Positions 1,193 through 50,392 of a stretch of DNA of 53,673 nucleotides are shown in pieces. Source of the stretch: Immundisolibacter sp. (lineage in GTDB: Bacteria > Pseudomonadota > Gammaproteobacteria > Immundisolibacterales > Immundisolibacteraceae); the NCBI RefSeq assembly GCF_014359565.1, contig NZ_JACIZD010000015.1:1-53673 (forward strand), given 5' to 3'. Numbering within the stretch: position 1 is the stretch's first letter; each line of letters opens with the position of its first letter. The notes below the pieces were generated by a model. That model ran no database searches, was not told where the DNA came from, and saw only the letters and a program-made list of their open reading frames with translations. The position numbers were made by a program, and so were the translations under genes.

Positions 1193-1202
<10 letters not shown>
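645..1202 (+). CDS. PIN-domain protein (putative ribonuclease)
   Basis: This 185-residue protein carries the acidic residues expected of a PIN nuclease: D24 in [10 protein letters not shown]69 in VLSEYINR, D145 in [10 protein letters not shown], and D163 in [12 protein letters not shown] proteins cut RNA with metal ions bound by these residues. It is longer than a typical VapC toxin (about 130 residues). An earlier in-frame ATG at 585 would lie deep inside the DUF4325 gene; the ATG at 645 overlaps that gene only slightly and opens directly onto the PIN strand, so I chose it. It overlaps the methylase start by 10 bases, so the three genes look co-translated. The partner may be the DUF4325 protein rather than a classic antitoxin, but that is inference. 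Confidence 0.75.
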
Positions 1203-4075
<2,873 letters not shown>

Positions 4076-4187: not shown

Positions 4188-5228
4188 ATGACAAAAATAT
4201 CCGCCATGCCAGACAAAGACGCCATACGCCAGCGGGCGCTGCACCTTATCGCCGCGGACGGCCACGGTGTGGCCCGTCGACTGGCGGCCGAGTTCGGAAT
4301 GTCCCGCCAGGCGGCGAACGTGCATCTGCAAGCCCTGCTGGGCAGCGGGTTGGTGCAGGCCGAGGGCAAGACCCGGGCGCAGGTTCACCGCCTGGCGACC
4401 CTGGGCGAGGCCACGCGCAGTTACCCGTGCGCGGGCCTGCGCGAGGATGTTGTGTGGCAGGAAGTGTTTGCGCCGGTGCTCGCCGGCCTGCCCGACAACC
4501 TGCTCGGTGTGTGGCAGTACGGTGTGACGGAGATGGTGAACAACGCGATTGATCATTCCGGTTCCGCGCAGGTCCACGTGGGGGTGCGGCGCAACGCCGT
4601 GGTTAGCGACGGCTGGGTGGCGGACGACGGGGAGGGCATCTTCCTGAAAATCCAGCGGGCGCTGAACTTGTACGACCCACGCGAGGCTATTCTGGAACTG
4701 GCCAAGGGCAAGCTCACCACCGACCCGGCGCGGCATTCCGGCGAGGGTATTTTCTTTACCTCCAAGGTGTTCGACGTGTTCGACATCCGCTCCGGGCGCC
4801 TGCATTTCATGCACGGCGAACATGATCCGGACGTGCTGTTGGAGCGTCCCACGGACGCCCCGGGCACGTTGGTGTTGATGCGGCTGGCCAACGACAGTCC
4901 GCGCACCGTCAGGGAGGTGTTCGATGCCTTCGCGGAGCCGGAGGAGTACAGCTTTGCAAGAACGCTGGTGCCGGTGCGCCTGGCGCAGTACGAGGGCGAA
5001 AAGCTGGTGTCGCGCTCGCAGGCCAAGCGGCTGTACCAGCGTTTCGAGCGTTTTCGCCACGTGGTGCTGGATTTCGAGGGCGTCGCGGAAATCGGGCAGG
5101 CGTTCGCGGATGAACTGTTCCGCGTTTTTCCCCTGGCGCATCCAGAGGTGATTCTGGCGCCCACGCACATGACGGCTGCGGTTGCACAGATGGCAAGCCG
5201 CGCGCGGGCACAGCGGCCTGACGCATAA
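4188..5228 (+). CDS. HTH / GHKL ATPase / STAS-like DUF4325 fusion regulator
   Basis: This 346-residue protein has three parts. Residues about 8-65 form a winged helix-turn-helix (GVARRLAAEFGMSRQAANVH). Residues about 75-225 form a GHKL (histidine-kinase-like) ATPase: the N box is EMVNNAIDHS at 115-124, the G1 box DDGEGIF at 146-152, and the G2 box HSGEGIFF at 183-190. The C-terminus (about 260-335) is a STAS-like DUF4325 domain (VVLDFEGVAEIGQAFADELF). Such fusions combine DNA binding, a switch-kinase-like ATPase and an anti-anti-sigma-like module in one chain. It sits between methylase and DUF499 ATPase and probably senses a signal and controls the operon. It may pair with the free DUF4325 protein at 299. 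ATG 4206 is an alternative start. Confidence 0.85.
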   Translation: MTKISAMPDKDAIRQRALHLIAADGHGVARRLAAEFGMSRQAANVHLQALLGSGLVQAEGKTRAQVHRLATLGEATRSYPCAGLREDVVWQEVFAPVLAGLPDNLLGVWQYGVTEMVNNAIDHSGSAQVHVGVRRNAVVSDGWVADDGEGIFLKIQRALNLYDPREAILELAKGKLTTDPARHSGEGIFFTSKVFDVFDIRSGRLHFMHGEHDPDVLLERPTDAPGTLVLMRLANDSPRTVREVFDAFAEPEEYSFARTLVPVRLAQYEGEKLVSRSQAKRLYQRFERFRHVVLDFEGVAEIGQAFADELFRVFPLAHPEVILAPTHMTAAVAQMASRARAQRPDA

Positions 5229-5258: not shown

Positions 5259-8588
<3,330 letters not shown>

Positions 8589-9788: not shown

Positions 9789-10076
9789 TCACGCCCCCTT
9801 CGTGCCGGAAGCGGTCCGCGCCCTCGTGCAACGCGGGGCAGGTGGTGGCGTGTAGGCTGGCCGGTTCTGGACCCATTCCAAGAGATCTGCAAACCGCCAG
9901 CCGGATTTGCCGGGGCTGATCGAGACGCGAGCCGGTACCAGTTTTTCGCCGGTTTCTTTTTCTCGCGCTTCGAGGGTTCTCCACCCTGTGCGACTCACGC
10001 CAGTCAAATCCGCCCGAACAGCCTCCCCGACGATCCGGTGCTTGGCCACGAGCTCCTGAATTTCGTCCGATGCCAT
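9789..10076 (-). CDS. AlpA-like excisionase/regulator
   Basis: This 95-residue protein has a helix-turn-helix (VRADLTGVSRTGWRTLEARE at about 20-39) followed by the wing pattern VSISPGKSGWRFADLLEWV typical of AlpA/MerR-like excisionases of tRNA-integrated elements. Such proteins bind att-site DNA or switch on the integrase for excision. It heads a leftward cluster of four tightly coupled genes ending in the initiator-like gene. The C-terminal tail after residue 73 is low-complexity. The fold call is fair; the exact role (excision or replication control) is inferred. Confidence 0.65.
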   Translation of the reverse strand: MASDEIQELVAKHRIVGEAVRADLTGVSRTGWRTLEAREKETGEKLVPARVSISPGKSGWRFADLLEWVQNRPAYTPPPAPRCTRARTASGTKGA

Positions 10077-10220
10077 GTTTCGTCACTCCGTCACGTGCCG
10101 GTACCGCGGTTGCGGTCCGGGCCTTTGCCGGCGTTTTCGACTTTGCCGGCAACTGCGTGGCGGATGATTCAGGAGACACGTTGTCCGAAATAGCCTTTTC
10201 GGACAGGGGTCAGCCGACCG

Positions 10221-11075
10221 TCATTTCTTCGGCGCTTCAACCGGCTTTCTTATCTTCCGTCGGACCGTGTCCGCAGTGAGCCCGTGCTTGTTCTCTATGG
10301 CCTCGGCGATTTCAGTCTTAGCCCAGGTCGGGTTGAGCCGCCATATCGCGTCGGCTTGCCTCTGGATGTCGGCGAGTTCCGATTTGGAGACTCCTGGTCG
10401 CCCGGGGCTTTTGCCATCGCGGCCGTACCCGATTTGCGCCAGGCCGACGACGATTGGAATCTCGAACCGCTCGGACAGGATGGCGTGATGCCATGCGTCG
10501 CTCAGTTCGATTCCGGCCAGTGCGGCCCACTGCGTGTCACCGGCGGCGAGCGCGGCTTCAAGCGACTCAGCGCGCTCCAATAGTTGGCAGGCAAACCATT
10601 CAAGTGACAACTCGCGCTTGTTGGTTGCCGCGGGGACGTCGACCGGCGGCGCCGGCAAGCTCTCGACGTGCTCCGCGATCTCCTCGAAGGTCCAACTCTC
10701 CCAGCCGCTCGGCATGTCGGTCGCGGGCTCTTGCGCATAGACCATGGTCAGGACATTCGTGACCGGGATCGACTCCCCATCCGGGATGTCATCAACATCC
10801 TTCAAGGAGTCACTGGGCAGTTCGGTCCACGTGCAATCCCGATGCATCTGCACGGTCCGCAGGGTGTCAGGCAGTCCGGCCTTACGAAGCACCCTTCCGG
10901 CCCATTCGCGCGCTGCTGACAGGCGGCCGTCAATCGCGCCTTTGCGCCGCCCAGCCGCGCTTTGTATCTCGCCGGACTCGCAACGAAGCACCCGGTTGCG
11001 GATGTAGAGCAACCCGTCGTACTCCTTGGAGTGCCCTTTTTCTGTCCTGATCTTTCGGCGAAATATCTTGCTCAT
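10221..11075 (-). CDS. Hypothetical protein of the integrative element, 284 aa
   Basis: This 284-residue protein has a basic N-terminus, an acidic Pro-rich middle (about 90-150), a helical region (about 150-215) and a C-terminal segment with a likely DNA-binding helix pair (VSKSELADIQRQADAIWRL and WAKTEIAEAIENKHGLTADT). I do not recognise a named family. Placement beside the AlpA-like cluster suggests an element-maintenance or regulatory gene. The gap 10077-10220 before the next gene contains nothing I can name. Confidence 0.55.
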   Translation of the reverse strand: MSKIFRRKIRTEKGHSKEYDGLLYIRNRVLRCESGEIQSAAGRRKGAIDGRLSAAREWAGRVLRKAGLPDTLRTVQMHRDCTWTELPSDSLKDVDDIPDGESIPVTNVLTMVYAQEPATDMPSGWESWTFEEIAEHVESLPAPPVDVPAATNKRELSLEWFACQLLERAESLEAALAAGDTQWAALAGIELSDAWHHAILSERFEIPIVVGLAQIGYGRDGKSPGRPGVSKSELADIQRQADAIWRLNPTWAKTEIAEAIENKHGLTADTVRRKIRKPVEAPKK

Positions 11076-22677: not shown

Positions 22678-23127
22678 TCAGCCTCGGCGCACCGTCACCA
22701 CATGGCGGTCGGGGCCGAATTCAAGCTGCGCGGTAATGCCGGCGTTTTCGGTCAGCGCCCGCCAGAAGCCGCGATTCATGTCCTGCAAGGCCGCGGCGGG
22801 CATCTGCCAATGCGCGAGCTGCCCGGCTGCGGCAGCCTCGACAGGCGGCATCTGGAAGCACAGCGTGCCGTTTTCGGTGCTGACCTGCAGCGCGCCTCCG
22901 AAGCCGTAGGTCACCTGGTAGTGCTCGTAAAAGATGCGCGCGATCCGCTCCAGGTCGCCGCTCAAGCGGCTCCAGTTGATGCCCTGCTCCATCATCATCC
23001 GAAAGCCGAATTCCTCGGCGCTGATGCCAAGGCCGCAGGCCACCTTGAGGCCGCCGATCAGCGTGCCCTGACATTCCTGCAGGCGCAGCCGGGCCAGGTC
23101 GTCGATGCTCAGCTCGGGCAGGTTCAT
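22678..23127 (-). CDS. Conserved-looking hypothetical protein, 149 aa
   Basis: I do not recognise this family. The 149-residue product has no signal peptide or membrane segment. It is mixed alpha/beta with a cluster of aromatic residues (INWSRLSGDLERIARIFYEH and VTYGFGGALQVS). Its ATG overlaps the stop of the HAD/riboflavin-kinase gene (ATGA), so the two form an operon and may share a flavin- or nucleotide-related job. ATG 23127 is used because longer in-frame starts run back through the preceding gene. Confidence 0.75.
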   Translation of the reverse strand: MNLPELSIDDLARLRLQECQGTLIGGLKVACGLGISAEEFGFRMMMEQGINWSRLSGDLERIARIFYEHYQVTYGFGGALQVSTENGTLCFQMPPVEAAAAGQLAHWQMPAAALQDMNRGFWRALTENAGITAQLEFGPDRHVVTVRRG

Positions 23128-24206
23128 GGCCAGGATTCCTCCAGGGTCAGGTAGCGCACGTCCAGCACGGCGCCGTCGGTCAGCGCCCAGCGGGTGCGCA
23201 GCGGAATGGGGCAGATCAGTTCGAACTTGTCGTCCGGGTAACCGGGTACTTGCGGCCACAGCAGCAGCGCCGGGGTGCGCATGGCGCGGTGCGTCAGCTC
23301 CACCGCGTGCAGCAGCGCCGGGCAAAAGCCATCGCGCGCGGCAAGTTCGAAGCGCTTCAGCCGTACGTCGTGGCGCAGGCCCACCGCCAGCACGGCACTG
23401 TCCGGGTCGGCGGCGAGGTTGACGGTGCCGGGGTAGAACGGGCCGCCGAGCCGGGCTTCGATGGCCTCGCGCACCCAGCTTATGGCAAGAAAGCCGCTCG
23501 CCTCACCAAGTCCGCTGACCAGTTCACCGCGCACCGTGGGCGCGGGAGCCGTCTCGGCCAGGTGCGCGTGCAGCTGCGTCAGCGAATCGAGCACCGCATA
23601 TGGGTTGTGCGGCAGCAGATCCTCGCGCCGCGAAGCGCCGGTGGTGATGCCAAAGGCCCGCACCCCGGCGCCGTGGGCGGCCTTGATGTCGATCGGGTTG
23701 TCGCCGACGTAGATTGCGGCCTCGGGCGCCAGCCCGAGCCGCTGCAGGGCAAGCGCGATGCCGCTGGGCGAGGGCTTGCGGGCCGGCGCCTCGTCGCGCG
23801 TGACGATGACGTCGATCGGCGGGCAGCCGGGCGCTTCGGTCAGCCGGCTGACCACGAAGTGATTCGAGTCGGTGACGATGCCCAGGCGCCAGCCCGTGGC
23901 CGCCAGCCGCTGCAGCACCGGCAGCGTGTCGTGAAACAGGCGCGCTTCCGCGGCGAACACGTCCTTCCAGAGGTTCTGGCTGGCGGCGCTCAACGCGCGG
24001 TGTCGGGCGTCGGCATCGGCAACCGGCCCCAGCAAGGCCTCGATGGGCGAGCGGCCCAGCGTCATCACCTCGCGAATGTAGCCGGGCGCCGGCTGCGGCC
24101 AGCCCAGCTCGCGGCAGGCGCGACGGGTGATGGCAAGAAACGCCGGGATGGAATCCAGCAGTGTGCCGTCAAGATCGAACAGCGCGGCGCGTGATGGTGC
24201 GGACAT
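23124..24206 (-). CDS. HAD phosphatase fused to a CTP-dependent riboflavin kinase-like domain
   Basis: From ATG 24206 the product is 360 residues. Residues 1-220 are a HAD hydrolase: motif I LFDLDGTLLDS, motif II IVTDSN, motif III with Lys in ARKPSPSG, and motif IV YVGDNPIDIKAA. Residues about 235-360 match the archaeal CTP-dependent riboflavin kinase family (DUF120): the glycine-rich start ELVSGLGEASGFLAIS, YPGTVNL, and the end FELICPIPLRTRWALTDGAVLDV. Bacteria normally make FMN with the unrelated RibF. The fusion could make and dephosphorylate a flavin nucleotide, or modify another substrate; this is inference. The C-terminal assignment is from motif memory. Confidence 0.8.
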   Translation of the reverse strand: MSAPSRAALFDLDGTLLDSIPAFLAITRRACRELGWPQPAPGYIREVMTLGRSPIEALLGPVADADARHRALSAASQNLWKDVFAAEARLFHDTLPVLQRLAATGWRLGIVTDSNHFVVSRLTEAPGCPPIDVIVTRDEAPARKPSPSGIALALQRLGLAPEAAIYVGDNPIDIKAAHGAGVRAFGITTGASRREDLLPHNPYAVLDSLTQLHAHLAETAPAPTVRGELVSGLGEASGFLAISWVREAIEARLGGPFYPGTVNLAADPDSAVLAVGLRHDVRLKRFELAARDGFCPALLHAVELTHRAMRTPALLLWPQVPGYPDDKFELICPIPLRTRWALTDGAVLDVRYLTLEESWP

Positions 24207-27480: not shown

Positions 27481-27687
27481 ATGACGACGGTGACCGTGTC
27501 CGAAAAATATCAGGTGGTGATTCCCAAGGCGGTGCGGGAGTCGCTGCAAATCAAGCCGGGGCAGAAGCTCGACGTGATCGTCTACGAGGGGCGTGCGGAG
27601 TTCGTCCCGGTGCAGGATATGCGCGCGGCACGCGGCTTCCTGCGCGGCATCGACACGGACGTGCCGCGGGAAGCCGACCGGGTATGA
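27481..27687 (+). CDS. vapB: VapB antitoxin, AbrB/SpoVT type
   Basis: This 68-residue protein has the swapped-hairpin AbrB fold (VTVSEKYQVVIPKAVRESL then GQKLDVIVYEGRAEFVPV) that binds DNA as a dimer, followed by a tail (about 45-68) that would block the VapC active site. A good Shine-Dalgarno (AGGAG) precedes the ATG by 6 bases. Its stop overlaps the vapC start (ATGA). Confidence 0.9.
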   Translation: MTTVTVSEKYQVVIPKAVRESLQIKPGQKLDVIVYEGRAEFVPVQDMRAARGFLRGIDTDVPREADRV

Positions 27688-28073
27688 ACCTGGTCGATTC
27701 GTCCGGCTGGCTGGAGTATTTCGCCGATGGACCCAATGCCACGTTCTTTGCGTCGGCGATCCTCGATACGGAACAGTTGGTTGTCCCGACGCTATCCCTG
27801 CTGGAGGTCTTCAAGCGCGTGTTGCAGCAACGGGGGGAGGGCGATGCCCTTCAAGCAGTGGCGCTGATGCGACAGGGGCAGGTGGTCGAGCTGGATTCCG
27901 TACTAGCGCTTTCGGCAGCGCGCTTGGGTGTGGAACATCGGCTCGCGCTTGCCGATTCGGTCATTTACGCCACCGCTCGCAGCTTTGGCGCGCTGCTGTG
28001 GACCCAGGATGCCGATTTCGAAGATCTACCCGGTGTGCGTTTTGTGGCGAAGTCACGCGGTCACGGCGGCTGA
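27684..28073 (+). CDS. vapC: VapC toxin, PIN-domain ribonuclease
   Basis: This 129-residue PIN protein has acidic residues at D5 (LVDSSGWLEYF), the helix Glu in LSLLEVFKRVL, the LALADSVIYATAR motif that carries the third acidic residue, and WTQDADFEDLPGV near the end. VapC toxins cut tRNA or rRNA. The pair sits between pepN and a relic CRISPR locus, and nothing in the sequence suggests it is broken. It is distinct from the PIN protein at 645, which is longer and has no AbrB partner. Confidence 0.9.
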   Translation: MNLVDSSGWLEYFADGPNATFFASAILDTEQLVVPTLSLLEVFKRVLQQRGEGDALQAVALMRQGQVVELDSVLALSAARLGVEHRLALADSVIYATARSFGALLWTQDADFEDLPGVRFVAKSRGHGG

Positions 28074-39488: not shown

Positions 39489-40001
39489 ATGGCGACTCGG
39501 GAAGCGGATCTGGATCTCGGCGGCGACGCCAAAAAGAAGTCCGGCAGTAAAAAATCGCTGCTGATGATGGGCGGCGGTGCGCTGGCGCTGGTGGCCGTCA
39601 GCATCGGCGCCACGGTGTTCCTGGTCGGCGGCAAGTCGGGGCCAGCGCCGGCTGCCGAGCACACCGCGGCGAAGGTCGAGGCACCAGCCACCTATACCGC
39701 CCTGGAACCGCCCTTCGTGGTGAATTTCGAGGACGAGGGAGCGATCCGCTTCCTGCAGGTCACGATCGAGGTCATGAGCCGTGACCCAAAGGTCGCCGAG
39801 GCGGTCAAGCTGCACATGCCGGCCATCCGCGATCAGCTGATCGTGCTGTTCAGCGGTTCCGATTACGCCACGCTCGCCAGCCGCGAAGGCAAGGATCAGC
39901 TGCGCCAGCAGGCCCTTGAGACGCTGAAGAAGATCCTCAAGGCCCAGGGTGCGCCGGACGCCATCGAAGGCCTGTATTTCACCAACTTCGTGATGCAGTG
40001 A
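39489..40001 (+). CDS. fliL: Flagellar basal-body protein FliL
   Basis: This 170-residue inner-membrane protein sits around the stators and modulates motor output. It has a cytoplasmic charged N-terminus with KKKSGSKK, one membrane helix (about 25-44), and a periplasmic domain with PPFVVNFEDEGAIRFLQVTIEV and the end VEGLYFTNFVMQ-like pattern (EGLYFTNFVMQ). A GGAG lies six bases before the ATG. It is the first gene of the operon read from the sigma-54 promoter at 39434, one base before fliM. Confidence 0.93.
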   Translation: MATREADLDLGGDAKKKSGSKKSLLMMGGGALALVAVSIGATVFLVGGKSGPAPAAEHTAAKVEAPATYTALEPPFVVNFEDEGAIRFLQVTIEVMSRDPKVAEAVKLHMPAIRDQLIVLFSGSDYATLASREGKDQLRQQALETLKKILKAQGAPDAIEGLYFTNFVMQ

Positions 40002-40002
40002 C

Positions 40003-40995
40003 ATGGCTCAGGACGAGCTGGTGTCCCAGGCTGAGCTGAGCGCCCTGCTGGACGCCGCGCCGTCTGCGGCGCGGTCCGGCGCACGGGGCGTCGAGCCGTA
40101 CGACCTGACCTGCCGCGTGCCGGCGCTGGACGGTGCCGATCTGCCGGCGCTGACCCGCATCACCGAGTACTTCTGCGAAGGCATGACCCGCAGCCTGACC
40201 CGCTACCTGGGCCGCGACACGCTGGTGACGATGCGCGGCTCGCAGGTTCGCGAGTTTCGGGATTTCGTGCATGCCCTGCCCGAGCGCGCCAGCGTGCGCG
40301 GCCTGGACATCGCTCCGCTGGCCGGTTCCGGCGTGCTGGTCCTGGAGCCGGCGCTGCTGTTCACGGTGGTGGAGAGTTTCTTCGGCGGCGGGCGCGCCTC
40401 GTCACCGCCCAGCAACCGCGACCTGACCCCGACCGAGCGACGCATGCTCGGCAACCTGCTCGATCTGCTGCTGCCGGAGTTGCAGACCGCCTGGGCGCCG
40501 GTGTTGCCGCTGAGCCCCGCCGTGGCCGCGAACGACGTCGACCCGCTGCTGGTGTCGCTGGTCGACCCGGCCGAGATGGTGCTGCTGCAAAGCTACGAAG
40601 TGGCGCTGCTGGGCGGCGGCGGTGATTTTCATCTGGCGCTGCCGATGTCGGCCCTGCAGGGCGTGTGGCCGGCACTGCGGGCCGGCGCCCCGGCCGCGGT
40701 GCCCGATGACAGCGCCTGGCGCTCCGCCTTGCAGGCGCGCGTTCTCGACAGCAGCCTGTCGCTCACGGCGGTGGTGGCGCGCCGCCAGTCGACCCTGCGC
40801 CATGTGCTGGGCTTGCAGGTGGGCGAGCTGCTGACCTTCGAGCGGGCCGACGGGGCGCGGCTGGAAGTGGCCGGCAAGCCCCTGTTCACCGGCGAGTTCG
40901 GTGTCTTTAACGGTAACAACGCCGTGTCGGTGACGGGCCCGGTGCGCCGTCCACCCACCGGCCCCGCAGATGGAACCCAGGGAGAACCCCGCTGA
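40003..40995 (+). CDS. fliM: Flagellar motor switch protein FliM
   Basis: This 330-residue C-ring protein links FliG to FliN and binds phospho-CheY. The N-terminal CheY-binding peptide reads LVSQAELSALLDAAPS. The middle CheC-like domain starts LTRITEYFCEGMTRSLTRYL and ends before the C-terminal SpoA domain (VVARRQSTLRHVLGLQVGELL). The N-terminal motif lacks the acidic core LSQDEID of the E. coli protein (here LVSQAELS), so CheY contact may differ. Confidence 0.93.
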   Translation: MAQDELVSQAELSALLDAAPSAARSGARGVEPYDLTCRVPALDGADLPALTRITEYFCEGMTRSLTRYLGRDTLVTMRGSQVREFRDFVHALPERASVRGLDIAPLAGSGVLVLEPALLFTVVESFFGGGRASSPPSNRDLTPTERRMLGNLLDLLLPELQTAWAPVLPLSPAVAANDVDPLLVSLVDPAEMVLLQSYEVALLGGGGDFHLALPMSALQGVWPALRAGAPAAVPDDSAWRSALQARVLDSSLSLTAVVARRQSTLRHVLGLQVGELLTFERADGARLEVAGKPLFTGEFGVFNGNNAVSVTGPVRRPPTGPADGTQGEPR

Positions 40996-41342
40996 TGGAA
41001 CTCGAACTCGACCAGAACCTGGCGAATGACGCCCAGACGGCCGCCGCGGGCGCTGAACCGGCGCTCCCGCGCAGCGGCGCCGACGTGGGCCTGGGGATGA
41101 TCATGGACATCCCGATCACGCTGACGGTGGAAGTCGGCCAGGCGCGCATGAGCATCGGTCGCCTGCTGGCGCTCGGCCAGGGCGCGGTGGTGGAGCTGGA
41201 CCGCGTGGCCGGCGAGCCGCTCGACGTGCTGGCCAATGGCACGCTGGTGGCGCGCGGCGAAGTGGTGGTGGTGGAGGACAAGTTCGGCATCCGCCTGACC
41301 GAGGTCATCAGCCCTACCGATCGCGCCAAGGGCGTGCGCTGA
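40995..41342 (+). CDS. fliN: Flagellar motor switch protein FliN
   Basis: This 115-residue SpoA-domain protein forms the lower C-ring. The family core is present: [42 protein letters not shown] and [15 protein letters not shown]. The N-terminal 35 residues are low-complexity and poorly conserved. It shares a TGATG junction with fliM and another with fliO, so all are translated together. Confidence 0.95.
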
Positions 41343-41734
41343 TGCGTGTCGTGCCGGCCCTGTTGCTGCTGTGCCCGCTGCCGGCGCTGGCGGCGCCGTC
41401 GGTGCTGGCCGCCGGTGGTCAGATGCTGGTCAGCCTGGCGCTGGTGGTGGCGCTGATCGGCGGCGTGTTCGTGCTGCTGCGCCGCCTGCAGCTGCGCACC
41501 GGTGGTGCCGGCAGCATCCGCACGTTGGCGGCGCACAGCGTCGGCACCCGCGAGCGGGTGGTGCTGCTGGAAGTGGCCGGCCGGCAACTGCTGGTCGGCG
41601 TCGCGCCGGGACGCGTGCAGGCGCTGCTGGTGCTCGGCGACGCTCCGGCCAAGGTGCCGACAAGCGTTCCGGCCGAGTCGTTTGCGGCCAGTCTGGATGC
41701 GGCCGTCGGCGCGGCCGGGCAGGGCGCACCATGA
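41342..41734 (+). CDS. fliO: Flagellar biosynthesis protein FliO
   Basis: This 130-residue small membrane protein assists assembly of the FliP ring of the export gate. A signal-like N-terminus ([14 protein letters not shown]) is followed by a membrane helix (about 28-46). A cytoplasmic FliO domain follows ([21 protein letters not shown], then [13 protein letters not shown]). It is short and poorly conserved, but position between fliN and fliP makes the call secure. Confidence 0.9.
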
Positions 41735-42468
41735 AACGCCTGCTGCTTGCCTTGCTGCTGCTGGCGCCGCTGCCGGCGCTGGCACAGGCCGGCCTGCCGG
41801 CCCTGACGCTGACGCAGGCCGCCGGTGGCGGCCAGACCTGGAGCGTCAGCCTGCAGGTGCTGGCGGTGATGACCTTCCTGACGCTGCTGCCCGGCGTGCT
41901 GCTGGCGATGACCTCCTTCACGCGCATCGTGATCGTGCTGGCCATCCTGCGCCAGGCGCTGGGCACCGGCCAGACGCCGTCGAGCCAGATCCTGGCCGGC
42001 CTGGCGCTGCTGCTGACGCTGTTCGTGATGGGGCCGGTTCTGAACCGGATCAACGGCGAGGCGCTGCAGCCGTACATGGAAGAAAAGCTCAGCCTGCCGG
42101 ATGCCGCCCTCAAGGCCGCGGCGCCGCTACGGCAGTTCATGCTGGCACAAACCCGCGAGAGCGACATTGCCACCTTCGCCCGCATCTCGGGCCGGGAAGC
42201 GGCCTTCGAGAGCCCGGACGCGGTGCCGTTCACGCTGCTGACGGCGGCCTTCGTGACCAGCGAGCTCAAGACCGCGTTCCAGATCGGCTTTCTGCTGTTC
42301 ATCCCGTTCGTGGTCATCGACCTGGTGGTGGCCAGCGTGCTGATGTCGCTGGGCATGATGATGCTCTCGCCGATGATCATTTCCCTGCCGTTCAAGATCA
42401 TGCTGTTCGTGCTGGTCGACGGTTGGGCGCTGGTCATGGGCACGCTGGCCGGCAGCTTTTACCAGTGA
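41731..42468 (+). CDS. fliP: Flagellar export gate protein FliP
   Basis: This 245-residue membrane protein forms the export pore with FliQ and FliR. It has a cleavable signal peptide ([17 protein letters not shown]), the [20 protein letters not shown] helix, then a periplasmic stretch with QLMLAQ-type helix ([15 protein letters not shown]), and the [19 protein letters not shown] region that is nearly invariant. Its ATG overlaps the fliO stop by four bases. Confidence 0.96.
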
Positions 42469-42478
42469 GCATGGGCCG

Positions 42479-42748
42479 ATGACTACGCAAACCGTGCTCG
42501 ACGTCGGCCGCGACGCGCTGTGGATGTGCCTGCTGCTGGCCGGCGGGCCGCTGCTGGCGATGCTGCTGGTCGGTCTGCTGGTGGGCATGCTGCAGGCCGC
42601 CACGCAGATCAACGAAATGACCTTGAGCTTCGTGCCCAAGCTGATCGTGATGGCCCTGCTGCTGGTGCTGACCGGCCCGTGGCTGGTGCAGACGCTGGTC
42701 GACTACACGCAGCGGCTGGTCACCGGCATTCCGGGTCTGATCGGCTGA
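42479..42748 (+). CDS. fliQ: Flagellar export gate protein FliQ
   Basis: This 89-residue protein has two membrane helices (about 15-40 and 50-75) with the family pattern GGPLLAMLLVGLLVGMLQAA, TQINEMTLSFVPKLIVM. It packs around FliP in the export pore. It starts 11 bases after fliP and shares TGATG with fliR. Confidence 0.95.
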   Translation: MTTQTVLDVGRDALWMCLLLAGGPLLAMLLVGLLVGMLQAATQINEMTLSFVPKLIVMALLLVLTGPWLVQTLVDYTQRLVTGIPGLIG

Positions 42749-43524
42749 TGGACATCGACAGTGCCCGCATCGGCGCCTGGGTCGGCCAGTTCTTCTGGCC
42801 GTTCCTGCGCCTGTCGGCATTCTTGCTGGCGGCGCCGGTGTTCGGTGCCCGCAGCGTGCCGGTGCGGGTGCGCATCACCATCGGCCTGGCGCTGACGGTG
42901 GTGCTGCTGCCCACGCTGCCGGCCGCGCCGGCGCTGGACGTGCTGTCGCCGCTCGGCTTGCTCACGGCCGTGCAGCAAATCGGCATCGGCGTGCTGGGCG
43001 GTTTCCTGCTGCAACTGTTCCTGGCTGCACTCAGCTTTGCCGGCGAGATGGTGTCGCTGGGCATGGGCCTGGGTTTCGCGTCGCTGGTCGATCCGCAAAA
43101 CGGCGTCAGCGTGCCGCTGCTGGCGCAGCTGTACGTGATGCTGGTGATCCTGCTCATGCTGGCGGTCGACGGCCACCTGCTGCTGCTGGAGCTGCTGGCG
43201 AGGAGCTTCAGCACGCTGCCGGTGGGGCCGGTCGGGCTGCGCTTCGAGGATTTCCGGGCCGTGGCCGGTTTCGTCAGCGACATGTTTGCGCTCGGCCTGC
43301 TGGTGGCGCTGCCGGCGGTCACGGTGCTGCTGGTGGTGAATCTGGCCTTTGCGGTCATCAGCCGGGCAGCGCCGCAGCTGAACCTGTTTGCGATCGGCTT
43401 CCCGGTGTCGCTGCTGGTCGGCCTGCTGATCGTGCTGCTCACGCTGCCGGCGCTGCCCGGTCAGTGGGACGGCATCTTCGGGCAGGCCATGGGGCGCCTC
43501 TCGGCGCTGCTCGGAGCGCGCTGA
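42748..43524 (+). CDS. fliR: Flagellar export gate protein FliR
   Basis: This 258-residue protein completes the FliP5-Q4-R1 export pore. The motifs are FLRLSAFLLAAPVFGARSVP, the long central helices with FAGEMVSLGMGLGFASLVDP, and LNLFAIGFPVSLLVGLL near the end. The ATG overlaps the fliQ stop and the gene is one base from flhB. Confidence 0.95.
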   Translation: MDIDSARIGAWVGQFFWPFLRLSAFLLAAPVFGARSVPVRVRITIGLALTVVLLPTLPAAPALDVLSPLGLLTAVQQIGIGVLGGFLLQLFLAALSFAGEMVSLGMGLGFASLVDPQNGVSVPLLAQLYVMLVILLMLAVDGHLLLLELLARSFSTLPVGPVGLRFEDFRAVAGFVSDMFALGLLVALPAVTVLLVVNLAFAVISRAAPQLNLFAIGFPVSLLVGLLIVLLTLPALPGQWDGIFGQAMGRLSALLGAR

Positions 43525-43525
43525 C

Positions 43526-44674
43526 ATGGCCGAAGAAAGCGCGCAGGAACGCACAGAAAAGGCCACCCCCAAGCGCCTGCAGGACGCCCGTGACAAGGGC
43601 CAGGTGGCGCGCTCGCGCGAGCTCAATTCGGCCGCGCTGGTGCTGCTGGGTGCCGGCGGGCTGTGGGCGCTGGGCGATCGCATCGGCGGCAGCCTGCTGG
43701 GGTTGATGCGGCATGGTTTTGCGTTCGACCGGGCGACCGCGCTCGATCCGGCGGCCCTGGCGACGCGTCTGGGCGAGGCCAGCGGGCAGGCTCTGCTGGC
43801 GCTGGCGCCGTGGCTGGTGCTGGCGGTGGTGGTGGCCGCCGCGGCGCCGCTGCTGCTGGGCGGTTTTCTGCTGTCGGGCGAGAACCTGCAACCGAAATTC
43901 GAACGCCTCGATCCGGTCAAGGGCATCAAGCGCGTGTTCTCGGCCCAGGGCGCGATGGAGACCGGCAAGGCGCTGGCCAAATTCGTGGTGCTGGGCGGAA
44001 TCGCCCTGCTGGTGATGCGCCAGATGACGCCGGCTTTGCTCGGCCTGGGCGGCGAACCGGTGCCGGCGGCCCTGCTGCACGCGGCGCAGCTGACGGCGCG
44101 GGCGTTTTTCCTGACCGCCCTCGGGCTGCTGCTGATCGCCGCCGTGGACGTGCCGTTCCAGTTGTGGAACCACGCCAAGCAGCTGCGCATGACCCGCCAG
44201 GACATCAAGGACGAGATGAAGGAAAGCGAGGGCCGCCCGGAAGTGCGCGGCCGCATCCGCCAGCGCCAGCAGGAGCTGTCGCGCCGCCGGATGATGCAGG
44301 ACGTGCCGACCGCGTCGGTGGTGGTGACCAACCCCACGCACTACGCCATCGCCCTGCGTTACGACGTGGGTGGCAACGGCGCGCCGCGGCTGGTGGCCAA
44401 GGGCGCCGACCTGGTGGCGGCGCAGATCCGCGCGCTGGCCAAGGAGCACAACGTGCCGATCCTGGAGCAGCCGCCGCTGGCGCGCGCCCTGTACTACAGC
44501 ACCAAGTTGGGCGCCGAGGTGCCGCGCGAGCTGTACGCCGTGGTGGCGCAGGTGCTGGCCTATGTCTACCAGCTGCGCACGCTGATGGCGGCCGGTCGCT
44601 ACAAGCTGCCGGACCTGCAGCCGCTGCCGGTGCCCGATGAACTGCAGCGCCCGCGCGGCGGCGTTGCGCACTGA
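43526..44674 (+). CDS. flhB: Flagellar export switch protein FlhB
   Basis: This 382-residue protein controls the change of export from hook to filament subunits by self-cleavage. The cytoplasmic N-terminus (AEESAQERTEKATPKRLQDA) leads into four membrane helices, and the self-cleaving NPTH motif lies at about residues 269-272 (VVVTNPTHYAIALRYD). The C-terminal tail continues past EVPRELYAVVAQVLAYVYQL. Confidence 0.96.
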   Translation: MAEESAQERTEKATPKRLQDARDKGQVARSRELNSAALVLLGAGGLWALGDRIGGSLLGLMRHGFAFDRATALDPAALATRLGEASGQALLALAPWLVLAVVVAAAAPLLLGGFLLSGENLQPKFERLDPVKGIKRVFSAQGAMETGKALAKFVVLGGIALLVMRQMTPALLGLGGEPVPAALLHAAQLTARAFFLTALGLLLIAAVDVPFQLWNHAKQLRMTRQDIKDEMKESEGRPEVRGRIRQRQQELSRRRMMQDVPTASVVVTNPTHYAIALRYDVGGNGAPRLVAKGADLVAAQIRALAKEHNVPILEQPPLARALYYSTKLGAEVPRELYAVVAQVLAYVYQLRTLMAAGRYKLPDLQPLPVPDELQRPRGGVAH

Positions 44675-44695
44675 TGACGCCAAGGAGCACCTGAC

Positions 44696-46780
44696 GTGAA
44701 TACCGCAGTCGGCATGGGCAACAACGTACGTGCTCTGGTCGGGCTGGGTCTGGGCACCCCGCTGCTGGTGCTGACGCTGCTCGGCATGATGCTGGTGCCG
44801 CTGCCGCCGTTGCTGCTGGACCTGCTGTTCACGTTCAACATCGCGCTGTCGCTGGTGGTGCTGCTGGTGGCGGTGTACGCGCTGCGGCCGCTGGACTTTG
44901 CGGTGTTCCCGACCCTGCTGCTGGTGGCGACCTTGCTGCGCCTGGCGCTGAACGTCGCCTCGACGCGGCTGGTGCTGCTGGACGGCCACACCGGCCCCGG
45001 CGCCGCCGGGCATGTGATCGAGGCCTTCGGCGCCTTCGTCATCGGCGGCAATTACGCCGTCGGCCTGGTGGTGTTCATCATCCTCATGATCATCAACTTC
45101 GCGGTGGTCACCAAGGGCGCCGGGCGGGTGTCGGAAGTCAACGCCCGCTTCACCCTGGACGCCATGCCCGGCAAGCAGATGGCGATCGATGCGGATCTGT
45201 CGGCCGGCGTCATCACCCAGCAGCAGGCGCAGGTCCGACGCGAGGAAGTGCGCCAGGAAGCCGATTTCTACGGCGCCATGGACGGCGCCAGCAAGTTCGT
45301 GCGCGGCGATGCGGTGGCCGGCGTGCTGATCCTGATCATCAACATCCTGGGCGGCATCGCCATCGGCATGGGCCAGCACGGCATGAGCGCCGGCGACGCC
45401 GTGCGCGTGTTCAGCCTGCTGACCATCGGCGACGGCCTGGTGGCGCAGGTGCCCTCGCTACTGCTGTCGGTGGCGGCGGCCATCCTGGTGACGCGCGTGT
45501 CGCAGTCGCAAAACGTCGCCACCCAGGTCAGCAAGCAGCTGCTGGCCAACCCTACGGCGCTGGCCATGGCCGGCGGCCTGGTTGGCATTCTTGGGGTGGT
45601 GCCGGGCATGCCGCACTTCGCCTTTTTGGCCCTGGGCGCGGGACTGGGTGGCGCCGCCTGGCGTATCGGCAAGCGCCAATCCACCGCTGCCGCCAGCCCG
45701 GATGCTGGCGCCCAGGCCCTGCCGGGGCCCGACGAACACAAGGAACTGGGCTGGGAAGAGGTCGCCGGCGTGGACCTGGTGGGTCTGGAGGTCGGCTATC
45801 GGCTGATTCCGCTGGTCGACAAGGCGCAGGGTGGCGAGCTGCTGACCCGCATCAAGGGGGTGCGCAAGAAGCTGTCGAAGGAACTGGGCTTTCTGCTGCA
45901 GCCGGTGCACATCCGCGACAACCTGGACCTGCCGCCGGGCGGCTACCGCATCACGCTGATGGGCGCGACGGCCGGGCAGGGCGAGCTGCTGCCGGACCGC
46001 GACCTTGCCATCAACCCCGGCCACGTCACCACGCCGGTGCCGGGCATCGCTACCAGGGATCCGAGCTTTGGCCTGGACGCGCTGTGGATCGAACGCGGTC
46101 TGCGCGAGCAGGCGCAGATGGCCGGCTACACCGTGGTCGATCCGGCCACCGTGGTGGCCACGCACCTTTCGCAGGTGCTGATGCGCTCGGCCCACGAGCT
46201 GCTGGGACACGAGGAAGTGCAGCACCTGCTCGACCGCCTGGCGGCGCAGGCGCCCAAGTTGGTCGAGAACCTCACGCCCAAGGTGCTGCCGCTGGGCACG
46301 GTGCTGCGCGTGCTGCGCAACCTGCTGCAGGAAGGCGTGCCGATCCGCGATCTGCGCAGCATTGCCGAGTCTTTGGCGGAGCACGGGACGCGCAGTCAAG
46401 ATCCCGACGTCCTGACCGCCCTGGTGCGGGTGGCGATCGGTCGAAGCATCGTGCAGGAGATCTTCGGAATGGCGCCAGAGCTAGCACTGATGACGCTTGA
46501 CCCGGAGTTGGAACGCATCTTGCTGAAGGCCGTTCAAGGCGGCGACGGCGCCCTGGGTCTGGAGCCGGGCCTCGCCGAACGCCTGCGCGGCCTGCTGGCC
46601 GACGCGGCGCAGCGCCAGGAGCTGCTCGGTCAGCCGGCGGTGCTGGTGGCCCCGAATGCGCTGCGGCTGTGGCTGGCGCGCTTCGTGCGCCACCTGGCGG
46701 TGGACCTGAAGGTGCTGGCTTACGAAGAGCTGCCGGAGAACCGCCAGGTGCGGGTGGTTGCAAACATCGGTGGGCGCTGA
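44696..46780 (+). CDS. flhA: Flagellar export gate protein FlhA
   Basis: This 694-residue protein is the nonameric export gate that binds chaperone-substrate complexes. It starts with GTG, preceded by AAGGAG. Eight membrane helices span about 20-330, with the family signature VSEVNARFTLDAMPGKQMAI and DADLSAGVITQQQAQ. The cytoplasmic domain shows PVHIRDNLDLPPGGYRITL and DLRSIAESLAEHG. The gap to flhB is 21 bases. Confidence 0.97.
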   Translation: MNTAVGMGNNVRALVGLGLGTPLLVLTLLGMMLVPLPPLLLDLLFTFNIALSLVVLLVAVYALRPLDFAVFPTLLLVATLLRLALNVASTRLVLLDGHTGPGAAGHVIEAFGAFVIGGNYAVGLVVFIILMIINFAVVTKGAGRVSEVNARFTLDAMPGKQMAIDADLSAGVITQQQAQVRREEVRQEADFYGAMDGASKFVRGDAVAGVLILIINILGGIAIGMGQHGMSAGDAVRVFSLLTIGDGLVAQVPSLLLSVAAAILVTRVSQSQNVATQVSKQLLANPTALAMAGGLVGILGVVPGMPHFAFLALGAGLGGAAWRIGKRQSTAAASPDAGAQALPGPDEHKELGWEEVAGVDLVGLEVGYRLIPLVDKAQGGELLTRIKGVRKKLSKELGFLLQPVHIRDNLDLPPGGYRITLMGATAGQGELLPDRDLAINPGHVTTPVPGIATRDPSFGLDALWIERGLREQAQMAGYTVVDPATVVATHLSQVLMRSAHELLGHEEVQHLLDRLAAQAPKLVENLTPKVLPLGTVLRVLRNLLQEGVPIRDLRSIAESLAEHGTRSQDPDVLTALVRVAIGRSIVQEIFGMAPELALMTLDPELERILLKAVQGGDGALGLEPGLAERLRGLLADAAQRQELLGQPAVLVAPNALRLWLARFVRHLAVDLKVLAYEELPENRQVRVVANIGGR

Positions 46781-46811
46781 AGCGCGTTCGCCCAGACACG
46801 GAGACACGAGC

Positions 46812-48014
46812 ATGCAGATCAAGCGCTACAGCGCCCCCGACATGCGCCGGGCATTGCACCTGGTGCGTCAGGCCCAGGGCTCGCAGGCCGTCATCCTGTC
46901 CAGTCGGCGCCTGCCGGACGGCGTCGAGGTGATCGCCGCCGACGAGTACGACGCGGCCCTGGTCGAGCGCCTGGCGGCCGGCGGCGACGGCGACGCCTTG
47001 CCGCCCGGCACCGGCAGGGAACTGCCGTCTCCCGGCCACGGCGATCTGCCTGGCCCGGCCGATCTGGATCGACTCGCCTGGGCGGTCGACCCGGCCATCG
47101 CCCAGCTGCGCAGCGAACTGACCACCCTGCGCGCGCTGCTCGAAACAGAACTGCGCCAGTCCGCGCTGGCCCGCCGCAGCCCGCTGCAGGCGCAGCTGGC
47201 GCAGTACCTGGAGCAACTGGGTCTGGCTGCGCCGCTGATCGGCTCGCTGCTGGAACAGCTCACCGAAACGCAGGACCTGGGCGCCGCCTGGCGCGAGGTG
47301 CTGGGCCAGCACCTGAGCGCGCGCATCCCGATCGCCGCCGACGACATGTTGACCGAAGGCGGCGTGGTGGCCTTGCTCGGCCCGACCGGCGTCGGCAAGA
47401 CCACGACCATTGCCAAGCTGGCCTCGCGCTTCGTGCGCGAGCACGGCGCCAAGCACCTGGGCCTGCTGACTACCGACAACTACCGCATCGGCGCTCACGA
47501 ACAGCTGCAGAACTACGGCCGCCTGCTGGGCGTGCCGGTGCAGATGGTGGATTCGGCGGAGGACCTGACCACCGCCCTGGCGGCGCTGGCCAACAAGCGC
47601 CTGGTGCTGGTCGACACCGCCGGCATGAGCCAGCGTGACCTGCGCCTGGGCGAGGCCCTGGCCGGCCTGCAGCGCAGCGGCCTGCGCAGCTACCTGACCC
47701 TGGCCAGCAACGCCCACGAGACGATGCTGGACGAGACCATCAGCGCCTTTGGCAAGCTGCCGCTGGCCGGCTGCGTGCTGACCAAGCTCGACGAATGCCC
47801 GAGCCTTGGCGCCGCCCTGTCGGCGGTGATCCGCCACCGCCTGCCGGTGGCCTGCGTCACCGACGGCCAGCGCGTGCCCGAGGACCTGCGCCCGGCGCGC
47901 GCCCGCGATCTGGTCAGCGTCGCCGCCCAGCGCATGCATGCCCGCGCCGAGCAGGCGGCGGCGGTCGCGCCGGTGCCGGCCGTCGCTGCCCGCCGGGTGG
48001 CCGCCCATGCTTGA
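46812..48014 (+). CDS. flhF: Flagellar placement GTPase FlhF
   Basis: This 400-residue SRP-type GTPase sets where polar flagella are built. It has the N-terminal B-like region (MQIKRYSAPDMRRALHLVR), a proline-rich linker, an NG domain with P-loop GPTGVGKT at 190-197, the LLTTDNYRIGAHEQLQ motif, DTAGMSQRD, and TKLDE as the guanine-specificity loop. The ATG at 46812 matches other FlhF starts. Presence of flhF and flhG predicts polar flagella. Confidence 0.96.
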   Translation: MQIKRYSAPDMRRALHLVRQAQGSQAVILSSRRLPDGVEVIAADEYDAALVERLAAGGDGDALPPGTGRELPSPGHGDLPGPADLDRLAWAVDPAIAQLRSELTTLRALLETELRQSALARRSPLQAQLAQYLEQLGLAAPLIGSLLEQLTETQDLGAAWREVLGQHLSARIPIAADDMLTEGGVVALLGPTGVGKTTTIAKLASRFVREHGAKHLGLLTTDNYRIGAHEQLQNYGRLLGVPVQMVDSAEDLTTALAALANKRLVLVDTAGMSQRDLRLGEALAGLQRSGLRSYLTLASNAHETMLDETISAFGKLPLAGCVLTKLDECPSLGAALSAVIRHRLPVACVTDGQRVPEDLRPARARDLVSVAAQRMHARAEQAAAVAPVPAVAARRVAAHA

Positions 48015-48879
48015 GGCGGCCTTCGACCAGGCGCGCGGCCTGCGCGCCACCAAGCCGGTGCAGGTGGTTGCCATCACCGGCGGCAAGGGCGGTGTCGGCA
48101 AGACCAATGTGTCGGTCAACCTGGGCGTGGCGCTGGCCCAGCGCGGCCGCGGCGTGATGCTGCTCGACGCCGACCTGGGTCTGGCCAACGTGGACGTGCT
48201 GCTGGGCCTGAAGCCGCGCTGGACCCTGGCCCATGTGCTCAGCGGCGAGCGCGAGCTGCCGGAGGTCATCGTCGAGGGTCCGGCCGGGCTGCGCATCGTG
48301 CCGGCGGCATCCGGCGTAGCCGGCATGGCCGATCTGCCGCCCAGTGTCTACGGCGGCCTCATCCAGGCCTTCGGGCAGCTGGCGATCGACCTTGACGTAC
48401 TGCTGGTGGATACCGCCGCCGGCGTGTCGGAAGGGGTGATGAGCTTCGCCCGGGCGGCGCAGGACGTGCTGGTGGTGGTGTGCGACGAGCCGGCCTCACT
48501 GGCCGATGCCTACGCCCTGATCAAGCTGCTGAGCACCCAGCACGGCGTGAGTCGGTTCCGGGTGCTGACCAACATGGTCCGCCGCGCCCGCGACGGGCGC
48601 GAGCTGTTTCACAAGCTGCTGTCGGTGTGCGATCAGTATCTGGACGTGGTGCTGGAGTTCGCCGGCGCGGTGCCGTTCGACGACTACCTGCGCAAGGCCG
48701 TGCAGCAACGCCAGTCGGTGCTGGAAGCCTACCCGCGCAGCCCGGCCGCCTTCGCCCTGCGCCAACTGGCCGAGCAGGTGGGGCACTGGCCGCGCGTCAG
48801 CGGCGCCAGCGGGCATCTGGAATTTTTCTTCGAGCGCATGTTGCGGCCGGCCCCGGCCGCGGTGGGAGGTTCAGCATGA
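48007..48879 (+). CDS. flhG: Flagellar number regulator FlhG (FleN)
   Basis: This 290-residue MinD-like ATPase limits flagellar number, antagonising FlhF and, in Pseudomonas, the activator FleQ. The deviant Walker A is GGKGGVGKT at 25-33, followed by LLDADLGLANVDVLLGL and VLLVDTAAGVSEGVMSF. It starts inside flhF (8-base overlap) and overlaps fliA by four bases. Confidence 0.95.
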   Translation: MLEAAFDQARGLRATKPVQVVAITGGKGGVGKTNVSVNLGVALAQRGRGVMLLDADLGLANVDVLLGLKPRWTLAHVLSGERELPEVIVEGPAGLRIVPAASGVAGMADLPPSVYGGLIQAFGQLAIDLDVLLVDTAAGVSEGVMSFARAAQDVLVVVCDEPASLADAYALIKLLSTQHGVSRFRVLTNMVRRARDGRELFHKLLSVCDQYLDVVLEFAGAVPFDDYLRKAVQQRQSVLEAYPRSPAAFALRQLAEQVGHWPRVSGASGHLEFFFERMLRPAPAAVGGSA

Positions 48880-49616
48880 GCGCAGTTCTCGCCTACAACA
48901 AGGCCGGTCGGCCCGAGGTGGCGGCACAGGAAGTGGACCGGCTGGTGCGCGCTCACGCGCCGCTGGTCAAGCGTATCGCCTATCACCTGCTGGCGCGCCT
49001 GCCGGCCAGCGTGCAGGTCGATGACCTGATCCAGGCCGGCATGATGGGCCTGATGGAAGCGGCCCGCCGTTACGAGGAAGGCCACGGCGCCAGCTTCGAG
49101 ACCTACGCCGGCATTCGCATCCGCGGCACCATGCTTGACGAGCTGCGCCGCGGCGGCTGGCTGCCGCGCACCGCCCTGCGCAAGCTGCGCCAGCTGACCG
49201 AAGCGACCCGCGCCGCCGAGCGCGAACTCGGCGGCGAGGCTTCGCCGGAGGCTATTGCCCGCCAGCTGGGCATGGACATGGACGGTTACTACACGCTGGC
49301 GCGCGAGGCGTCCGAGTTCGGCGTGGTGCGCTTCGCGGACCTGGGCGGCGAGGACGACGAACCCTGGGAAAACGGCATCGCCGACACCAGCCCCGGCCCG
49401 CAGGCGCAGGTGGAGGACGACGACCTGCGCACGCGCATCGCCGGCGCCGTGGACCTGCTGCCGGAGCGCGAAAAACTGGTCATGTCCCTGTACTACGAAC
49501 AGGACCTGAACCTGCGCGAGATCGGCGAGGTGCTGGGCGTGAGCGAGTCGCGCGTGTGTCAGATCCACGGCCAGGCACTGATCCGCCTGCGCGCCCGGCT
49601 CGGCGGCCGGGATTGA
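48876..49616 (+). CDS. fliA: Flagellar sigma factor FliA (sigma-28)
   Basis: This 246-residue sigma factor reads late flagellar and chemotaxis promoters. Regions 2 to 4 are all visible: VDDLIQAGMMGLMEAARRYE and FETYAGIRIRGTMLDELRRG (region 2), HTH-like region 3 (EASPEAIARQLGMDMDGYY), and the region 4 HTH LNLREIGEVLGVSESRVCQI. The activity of FliA is normally held by FlgM, which is not in the window. Confidence 0.96.
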   Translation: MSAVLAYNKAGRPEVAAQEVDRLVRAHAPLVKRIAYHLLARLPASVQVDDLIQAGMMGLMEAARRYEEGHGASFETYAGIRIRGTMLDELRRGGWLPRTALRKLRQLTEATRAAERELGGEASPEAIARQLGMDMDGYYTLAREASEFGVVRFADLGGEDDEPWENGIADTSPGPQAQVEDDDLRTRIAGAVDLLPEREKLVMSLYYEQDLNLREIGEVLGVSESRVCQIHGQALIRLRARLGGRD

Positions 49617-49641
49617 GCCCTAGCGGCGCAGGGCCAGACAC

Positions 49642-50382
49642 ATGGACATTCTGAGTTTTGCCGGCGTGGCGATGGCCTTCATCGCCATCCTGGGCGGCAA
49701 CGCGCTCGAGGGCGGGCATCTGAGCTCGCTGGTGCAGCCAACGGCCTTTCTGATCGTCGGCGGCGGCACCTTCGGGGCGGTGATGGTGCAGACGCCGCTG
49801 CCGACCTTCCTGAAAGCCATGAAGATGACCGCCTGGGTGTTTGTGCCGCCCAAGCTCGATTTTGCGGCGGCCATCGACAAGATCGTCGAATGGGGCAACG
49901 TCGCCCGCCGCGAGGGTCTGCTTGGCCTGGAGACGATGGCCGAGTCCGAGACCGACCCGTTCGTGAAGAAGGGCCTGCAATTGCTGGTCGACGGCAGCGA
50001 GCCGGACACCATTCGCGGCGTGCTGGAGGTCGAGCTGTCGGCCGCCGAGCACCAGGAAAACGCCGCCGCCAAGGTGTACGACGGCTTTGGCGGCTACTCG
50101 CCGACCATCGGCATCATCGGCGCCGTGATGGGCCTGATCCACGTCATGGAGAACCTGTCGGACCCGAGCAAGCTCGGCGGCGGCATCGCGGTCGCCTTCG
50201 TGGCCACCATCTACGGCGTGGCGCTGGCCAACCTGTTCTTCCTGCCGATGGCCAACAAGCTTAAGGGCGTGGTGCACCACCGCAGCCAGTTCAAGGAGCT
50301 GACCATCGAGGGCCTGGCGGCCATTGCCGCCGGCGAGAACCCGCGCAACATCGAGCTGAAACTGCAGGGCTACCTGCACTGA
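49642..50382 (+). CDS. motC: Flagellar stator protein MotA-type (MotC)
   Basis: This 246-residue protein is the MotA-family ring of a proton channel. Four membrane helices are present (about 5-22, 30-48, 148-168, 180-200). The ATVGGGxFG-like motif (LIVGGGTFGAVMVQTP) and the loop GFGGYSPTIGIIGAVMGLIHVM match the family. It pairs with the MotB-type gene 10 bases on. The equivalent in Pseudomonas after fliA-che is MotC, hence the symbol. Confidence 0.93.
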   Translation: MDILSFAGVAMAFIAILGGNALEGGHLSSLVQPTAFLIVGGGTFGAVMVQTPLPTFLKAMKMTAWVFVPPKLDFAAAIDKIVEWGNVARREGLLGLETMAESETDPFVKKGLQLLVDGSEPDTIRGVLEVELSAAEHQENAAAKVYDGFGGYSPTIGIIGAVMGLIHVMENLSDPSKLGGGIAVAFVATIYGVALANLFFLPMANKLKGVVHHRSQFKELTIEGLAAIAAGENPRNIELKLQGYLH

Positions 50383-50392
50383 CGCCGCCGTC

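Follow-up and report, generated by a model that had tools for sequence, protein, structure and literature searches.

The window (the whole stretch of DNA that was analysed, 53,673 nucleotides of an Immundisolibacter sp. contig) carries on its minus strand a gene for a two-domain protein, in which a HAD phosphatase is joined to a CTP-dependent riboflavin kinase domain (DUF120), and directly after it a gene for a small partner protein. The features of the locus are:

23124-24206, minus strand: HAD–DUF120 fusion protein of 360 aa, with the start codon ATG at 24206
23649-24182, minus strand: HAD_2 phosphatase domain, residues 9-186 of the fusion (PF13419, E 5.9e-30)
23157-23519, minus strand: CTP-dependent riboflavin kinase domain (PF01982/DUF120), residues 230-350 of the fusion, as matched in Pfam
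23415-23435, minus strand: YPGTVNL motif, of which GTxN aligns with GTLN of MJ0056
23193-23240, minus strand: YPDDKFELICPIPLRT, containing the conserved E and LR, and the bacterial Y-P-x-x-K that replaces the archaeal T-x-H
22678-23127, minus strand: partner protein of 149 aa, directly after the fusion, with a predicted Bet3/TRAPP-like fold

Elsewhere in the window, the plus-strand stretches 1193-3142, 4188-5228, and 5259-8588 include strong matches to proteins of the Hma defence system, with HmaB (a DNA-adenine methylase) at 1148 bits and HmaC (an AAA+ ATPase) at 1178 bits. The HmaC match features an N-terminal Swt1-like HEPN domain, and a protein with DUF4325 and a weak HATPase-like match lies between the HmaB and HmaC matches. 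At 27481-28073 (plus strand), a MazE/AbrB-type antitoxin gene overlaps a PIN-domain gene; the pair is a probable VapBC-type toxin–antitoxin. The gene run at 39489-51457 resembles, by eye, homologs of flagellar fliL/M/N, flhB/A, and motA/B. In the host, ORFs near the UbiDs look like aromatic-degradation genes.

The preliminary description had read the gene as a HAD phosphatase fused to a DUF120 domain; its coordinates and this reading are correct, with both domains matched in Pfam. The PF01982 search that it had proposed yields an E-value of 1.4e-12 and 48.1 bits against a curated cut-off of 25, and its reservation that such a match might be missing is thus inapplicable. This is the single PF01982 match in the genome. 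The AlphaFold model of the fusion has a mean pLDDT of 86. The fusion is present in six genomes of one family (f1): the window's own, G150 and G369 of the same genus, and G262, G370, and G372 of the sister genus (g2). Among the sampled genomes of this family, G371, which is 60% complete, is the only one with no match to it. The six orthologs align over their full length with 42-95% identity to the window's protein; GLG, GTxN, E, and R, the landmarks of DUF120, do not vary in this alignment. Contamination or a one-off assembly artefact is ruled out because the fusion and its partner recur in five more genomes.

The HAD domain carries the motifs D11, D13, T112, K144, D169, and D173, which are intact and invariant in the alignment of the six orthologs, and, with its DxD, T/S, K, and acidic motif IV, belongs to the HAD_2 (HAD-IA) phosphatases. 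In a structural comparison of the predicted model, the HAD part superposes on 2ah5 with a Z-score of 23.4 and 2.5 Å over 206 residues; the HAD phosphatases on which the model is superposed include a pyrophosphatase. The phosphoglycolate phosphatase equivalog TIGR01449 is matched at 92.9 bits, under its cut-off of 180, and every equivalog cut-off among the matches listed lies well above the scores of this domain.

The DUF120 domain aligns with MJ0056 of M. jannaschii at GLG, GTxN, and (P)LR (phmmer E 5.5e-7). The Gly-rich loop, GTxN, and LR, which we take from the MJ0056 structures to be assigned to CDP and Mg, are all in place. The ribK_Meth equivalog of NCBIfam is matched under its cut-off of 168 bits by the fusion (32.8 bits) and likewise by the stand-alone DUF120 proteins of Azoarcus (60.5) and G014 (61.4); the fusion therefore belongs to the PF01982 family without qualifying as an equivalog of the enzyme from methanogens. 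With the PF01982 model, the stand-alone members score 101-102 bits and the divergent domains of family f1 43-53 bits. Ten bacterial rows were compared with three archaeal sequences. GxG, GTxN, E, and LR are unchanged between the two sets. The T-x-H motif common to the three archaeal sequences, which presumably lies on the side of the acceptor, has no counterpart in the bacterial rows: its position is taken by Y-P-x-x-K in nine of them and by Y-P-x-x-R in G120. All ten have F/Y/W-C where the archaea have F-G or F-F, and most have a W after the Gly-rich loop. The preliminary description had made its reading depend on the CTP- and flavin-binding residues; the presumed nucleotide/Mg side is kept, and the presumed flavin side only in part. 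In MJ0056, T and H presumably touch the flavin; if so, the bacterial acceptor pocket is altered, and an altered pocket makes another acceptor conceivable, e.g., prenol or a prenylated flavin. Riboflavin is a plausible but not proven acceptor, since Y-P-x-x-K stands in for T-x-H. From homology and the kept landmarks, CTP and riboflavin would, on balance, be the substrates of the domain.

An ordinary RibF kinase domain (PF01687, 136.9 bits) is encoded in the window's genome at C1:777074-777442. Hence, the housekeeping flavokinase is a protein other than the fusion, and a replacement of RibF by DUF120 in this genome is ruled out; the archaeal situation evoked by the preliminary description, in which this kinase takes the place of the RibF kinase half, does not apply here, as the check for ribF that it had suggested reveals. 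Archaeal RibK (MJ0056; PDB 2p3m, 2vbs-2vbv) features PF01982 with GLGE, GTxN, E, and LR, the same as the fusion. Unlike RibK, the fusion occurs in a bacterium that has RibF, is joined to a HAD domain, lacks T-x-H, and is linked to UbiD/UbiX.

The start of the partner gene overlaps the stop of the fusion gene in ATGA (CCATGAAC), which is, as read from the sequence, a signature of translational coupling. The attached 149-residue partner named in the preliminary description is a real gene, conserved beside the fusion in five other genomes. Its product has 147-149 aa across the six genomes and always adjoins the fusion; five sequences make up the alignment, and the sixth copy is that of G369 (L017 10605-10159, 81% identical). 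It has no match in Pfam or NCBIfam and none in a plasmid search. Its AlphaFold model (mean pLDDT 87.5) finds its best structural match in 2bjn, a TRAPP/Bet3 subunit, with a Z-score of 9.8 and 3.5 Å over 123 residues, followed by matches with Z-scores of 8-8.7, mostly TRAPP subunits, and more weakly by H-NOX domains (Z about 5.4). The predicted fold thus most resembles Bet3/TRAPP and suggests a ligand-binding domain; that the partner aids by binding a ligand is a rather doubtful proposal. LpdD (PMC10865409) and PhdC (PMC13040415) are small like the partner and serve in cofactor delivery to or maturation of UbiD, acting downstream of UbiX. However, LpdD resembles the Pba3/4 chaperone, whereas the partner is predicted to be Bet3/TRAPP-like; neither LpdD nor another known prenylated-FMN (prFMN) protein matches it in sequence or occurs in its list of structural matches, although on that list such an identity is still conceivable.

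The fusion lies directly behind ubiD in G262, G370, and G372 (L014, L015, and L016); this UbiD has about 536 aa and, in G262, matches PF01977 at 181.8 bits. In the window's own genome and genus, the fusion does not adjoin ubiD. The ubiD ortholog of the window's genome (73% identical) is found on another contig, C6 (L068 8342-9907), and so the adjacency was either lost or never there in this genome. In genome G000, UbiD is matched five times and UbiX once.

Three clusters for anaerobic phenol degradation, all of the phenylphosphate carboxylase kind, have a stand-alone DUF120 gene beside UbiD/UbiX. One lies on the Azoarcus sp. KH32C plasmid pAZKH, one on a Rhodocyclaceae contig (L003), and one in G014 (L018). 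The annotation of pAZKH reads ppcB-ppcD-ppcA-ppcG-UbiD-UbiX-DUF120-NUDIX-AMP-binding, with a four-nt overlap between UbiX and DUF120. The DUF120 gene of G014, the best-scoring one with 102 bits, overlaps ubiD in a phenylphosphate carboxylase cluster, in which the alpha, beta, and delta subunits score above their NCBIfam cut-offs and gamma reaches 122.5 against 135.6. In all three clusters, a Nudix gene directly follows DUF120 (L053 20401-20946; L003 8381-8890; L018 about 9961-10464). A transcript of UbiD, UbiX, and Nudix has been reported, with the Nudix protein taken as a hydroxylase candidate and not as part of cofactor supply (PMC5852087). The phenylphosphate carboxylase clusters of the Azoarcus/Thauera type hence have, like the fusion, a DUF120 from this branch, which in their case lies next to UbiD, UbiX, and Nudix. 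They differ from it in that DUF120 is unfused and Nudix stands where the HAD domain would be; no such cluster surrounds the fusion in the window. A ubiD or ubiX neighbour is thus found in independent lineages (genus g2 of family f1; G014; L003; Azoarcus). A search of open-access literature for DUF120 in connection with UbiD, UbiX, or phenylphosphate carboxylase returned nothing relevant.

A second fusion is found in G120 in reverse order, with DUF120 at residues 10-127 and HAD at 137-317, the latter about 31% identical to the window's HAD. Because of the opposite domain order, the two HAD fusions arose separately. G120 shows an unusual UbiD expansion: its 5 Mb genome yields 14 matches, several of which form close pairs. 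Searches across the orders of G014 and G120 covered just those genomes. The co-occurrence of DUF120 and UbiD was counted in 369 genomes drawn evenly from the class. DUF120 occurs in five of the six UbiD-rich genomes, i.e., those with at least four UbiD matches, vs 1 of the 363 others (Fisher p 6e-10 by genome); UbiD-rich G368 lacks such a match. With taxonomic families as the unit, DUF120 is carried by three of the four UbiD-rich ones vs 1 of 179 others, the divergent G180 counted (p 1.6e-5, calculated once the pattern had been noticed and with the family number, 183, read from genome labels). This value by family is the fairer measure because the five genomes belong to only three lineages.

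The UbiD-linked bacterial DUF120 rows fall on one side of an unrooted tree with 82/81 support, short of the starred level; on the other side are the archaeal and divergent rows. G180, the sole DUF120 genome among the 363, and G491 form a separate, strongly divergent branch (35% mutually identical, 100/98 support) and have no UbiD in their genomes; they were set aside. Their domains are located at L020 9045-10634 (minus strand) and L022 1456-2019; in G180, DUF120 is fused N-terminally to a group 1 glycosyltransferase. A match in G216 was likewise set aside, being under the cut-off (E 8.1e-4, 19.4 bits) in a protein that looks unrelated.

UbiX joins FMN with a dimethylallyl phosphate; some UbiX enzymes need the monophosphate (DMAP) and others DMAPP (PMC6541611). 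DMAP for UbiX can be made from DMAPP by the Nudix enzyme NudJ or from prenol by ThiM (PMC12359138), and NudJ thereby gives a phosphohydrolase beside DUF120 a role. Since UbiX uses FMN and DMAP or DMAPP, a riboflavin kinase and a phosphohydrolase in its vicinity fit its two substrates. A tie of the fusion to prFMN (UbiX/UbiD) metabolism as such appears probable from comparative genomics because of the ubiD/ubiX adjacency in two independent settings, the two HAD fusions, and the co-occurrence with UbiD. The more specific reading, to which we give an even chance, is a bifunctional enzyme that would supply UbiX, the flavin prenyltransferase, in a bacterial host that has several UbiD decarboxylases/carboxylases. 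DUF120 would move phosphate from CTP onto riboflavin, or a close flavin, to form FMN, and HAD would remove one phosphate from the second UbiX precursor, with DMAPP to DMAP as the likeliest reaction, in the place occupied by Nudix in the phenol clusters. DMAPP as the HAD substrate is a tentative prediction from position; the likeness of the domain to pyrophosphatases, among others, is in line with it. UbiX would then build prenylated FMN for the UbiDs, which would use it as the cofactor for adding CO2 to or removing it from aromatic compounds. The new flavin-nucleotide or related pathway anticipated in the preliminary description is broadly borne out, and the specific link to prFMN had escaped it.

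The UbiX sequences bear on the DMAP step in two ways. The UbiX of the window's genome (C1:631379-631924), as those of its family, has a His where the O157 enzyme has His164, and the latter accepts both DMAP and DMAPP (PMC6541611). The phenol-cluster UbiX has a Gln where the DMAPP-specific A. niger enzyme has Gln203, which argues against a DMAP need there, although specificity is not set by this position on its own (PMC6541611).

The main rival reading for the HAD domain, itself unlikely, is a flavin switch, in which DUF120 would make FMN and HAD would hydrolyse FMN back to riboflavin, convergent with the plant enzyme AtFMN/FHy. The phenol-cluster Nudix would then be an FAD pyrophosphatase, and the module would set the level of FMN, not DMAP, for UbiX. 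Consistent with this, the residues at the 181-equivalent position of UbiX do not demand DMAP, and the Azoarcus Nudix features an N-terminal zinc-ribbon-like stretch (PF14803, 19.9 bits) and has NAD(+) diphosphatase as its nearest NCBIfam model, both under cut-off. Plants have a bifunctional FMN hydrolase/riboflavin kinase, AtFMN/FHy (Sandoval & Roje 2005, reference 13 in PMC9678776). Like the fusion, it unites a HAD phosphatase with a riboflavin kinase in a single chain. However, opposing activities in one supply enzyme require tight regulation, of which none is seen. AtFMN/FHy, unlike the fusion, has no known UbiX/UbiD link. Its domain order, HAD–kinase, is the same as that of the fusion. The plant kinase belongs to an unrelated, ATP-dependent flavokinase family, and the likeness is therefore merely functional.

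The bacterial changes, with conserved F-C and Y-P-x-x-K and mostly W in place of archaeal residues including T-x-H, would also suit a DUF120 domain that has switched its acceptor and uses CTP to phosphorylate a different small alcohol or a flavin in prenylated or reduced form, with HAD as the matching phosphatase. Conversion of prenol to DMAP, a known route by ThiM (PMC12359138), or the salvage of dephospho-prFMN are examples, and FMN is already made by RibF. Since the stand-alone members reach 101-102 bits with PF01982, the pocket may well still take riboflavin, and we regard a changed acceptor as improbable. The divergence of the kinase domain in family f1 (43-53 bits) and the resemblance of HAD to phosphoglycolate phosphatases could further point to an ordinary metabolite phosphatase, in which DUF120 is a mere ligand sensor or relic and has no significance for a pathway. 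This is very unlikely in view of the catalytic landmarks kept in six orthologs at 42-95% identity, the repeated UbiD/UbiX association, and the two independent HAD fusions.

The link to prFMN is the new element of this locus, and the bare fusion is less interesting than the fusion in its context. Possibly, though only tentatively on present sequence grounds, there is an unnamed bacterial prFMN module in UbiD-rich aromatic degraders. In it, this DUF120 branch, a bacterial one of the archaeal kinase family, would be paired with Nudix or fused in either order to HAD, and would provide UbiX with both of its substrates, FMN and DMAP, or else act directly as the kinase of a prenyl-flavin precursor. 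The supply of DMAP and FMN to UbiX in bacteria is ill-defined, and in heterologous hosts many UbiDs are difficult to get active. If the proposed supply of UbiX holds true, the kinase/phosphatase module beside the UbiDs would be a candidate for a missing part, and a kinase known from archaea would enter a specific bacterial cofactor pathway.
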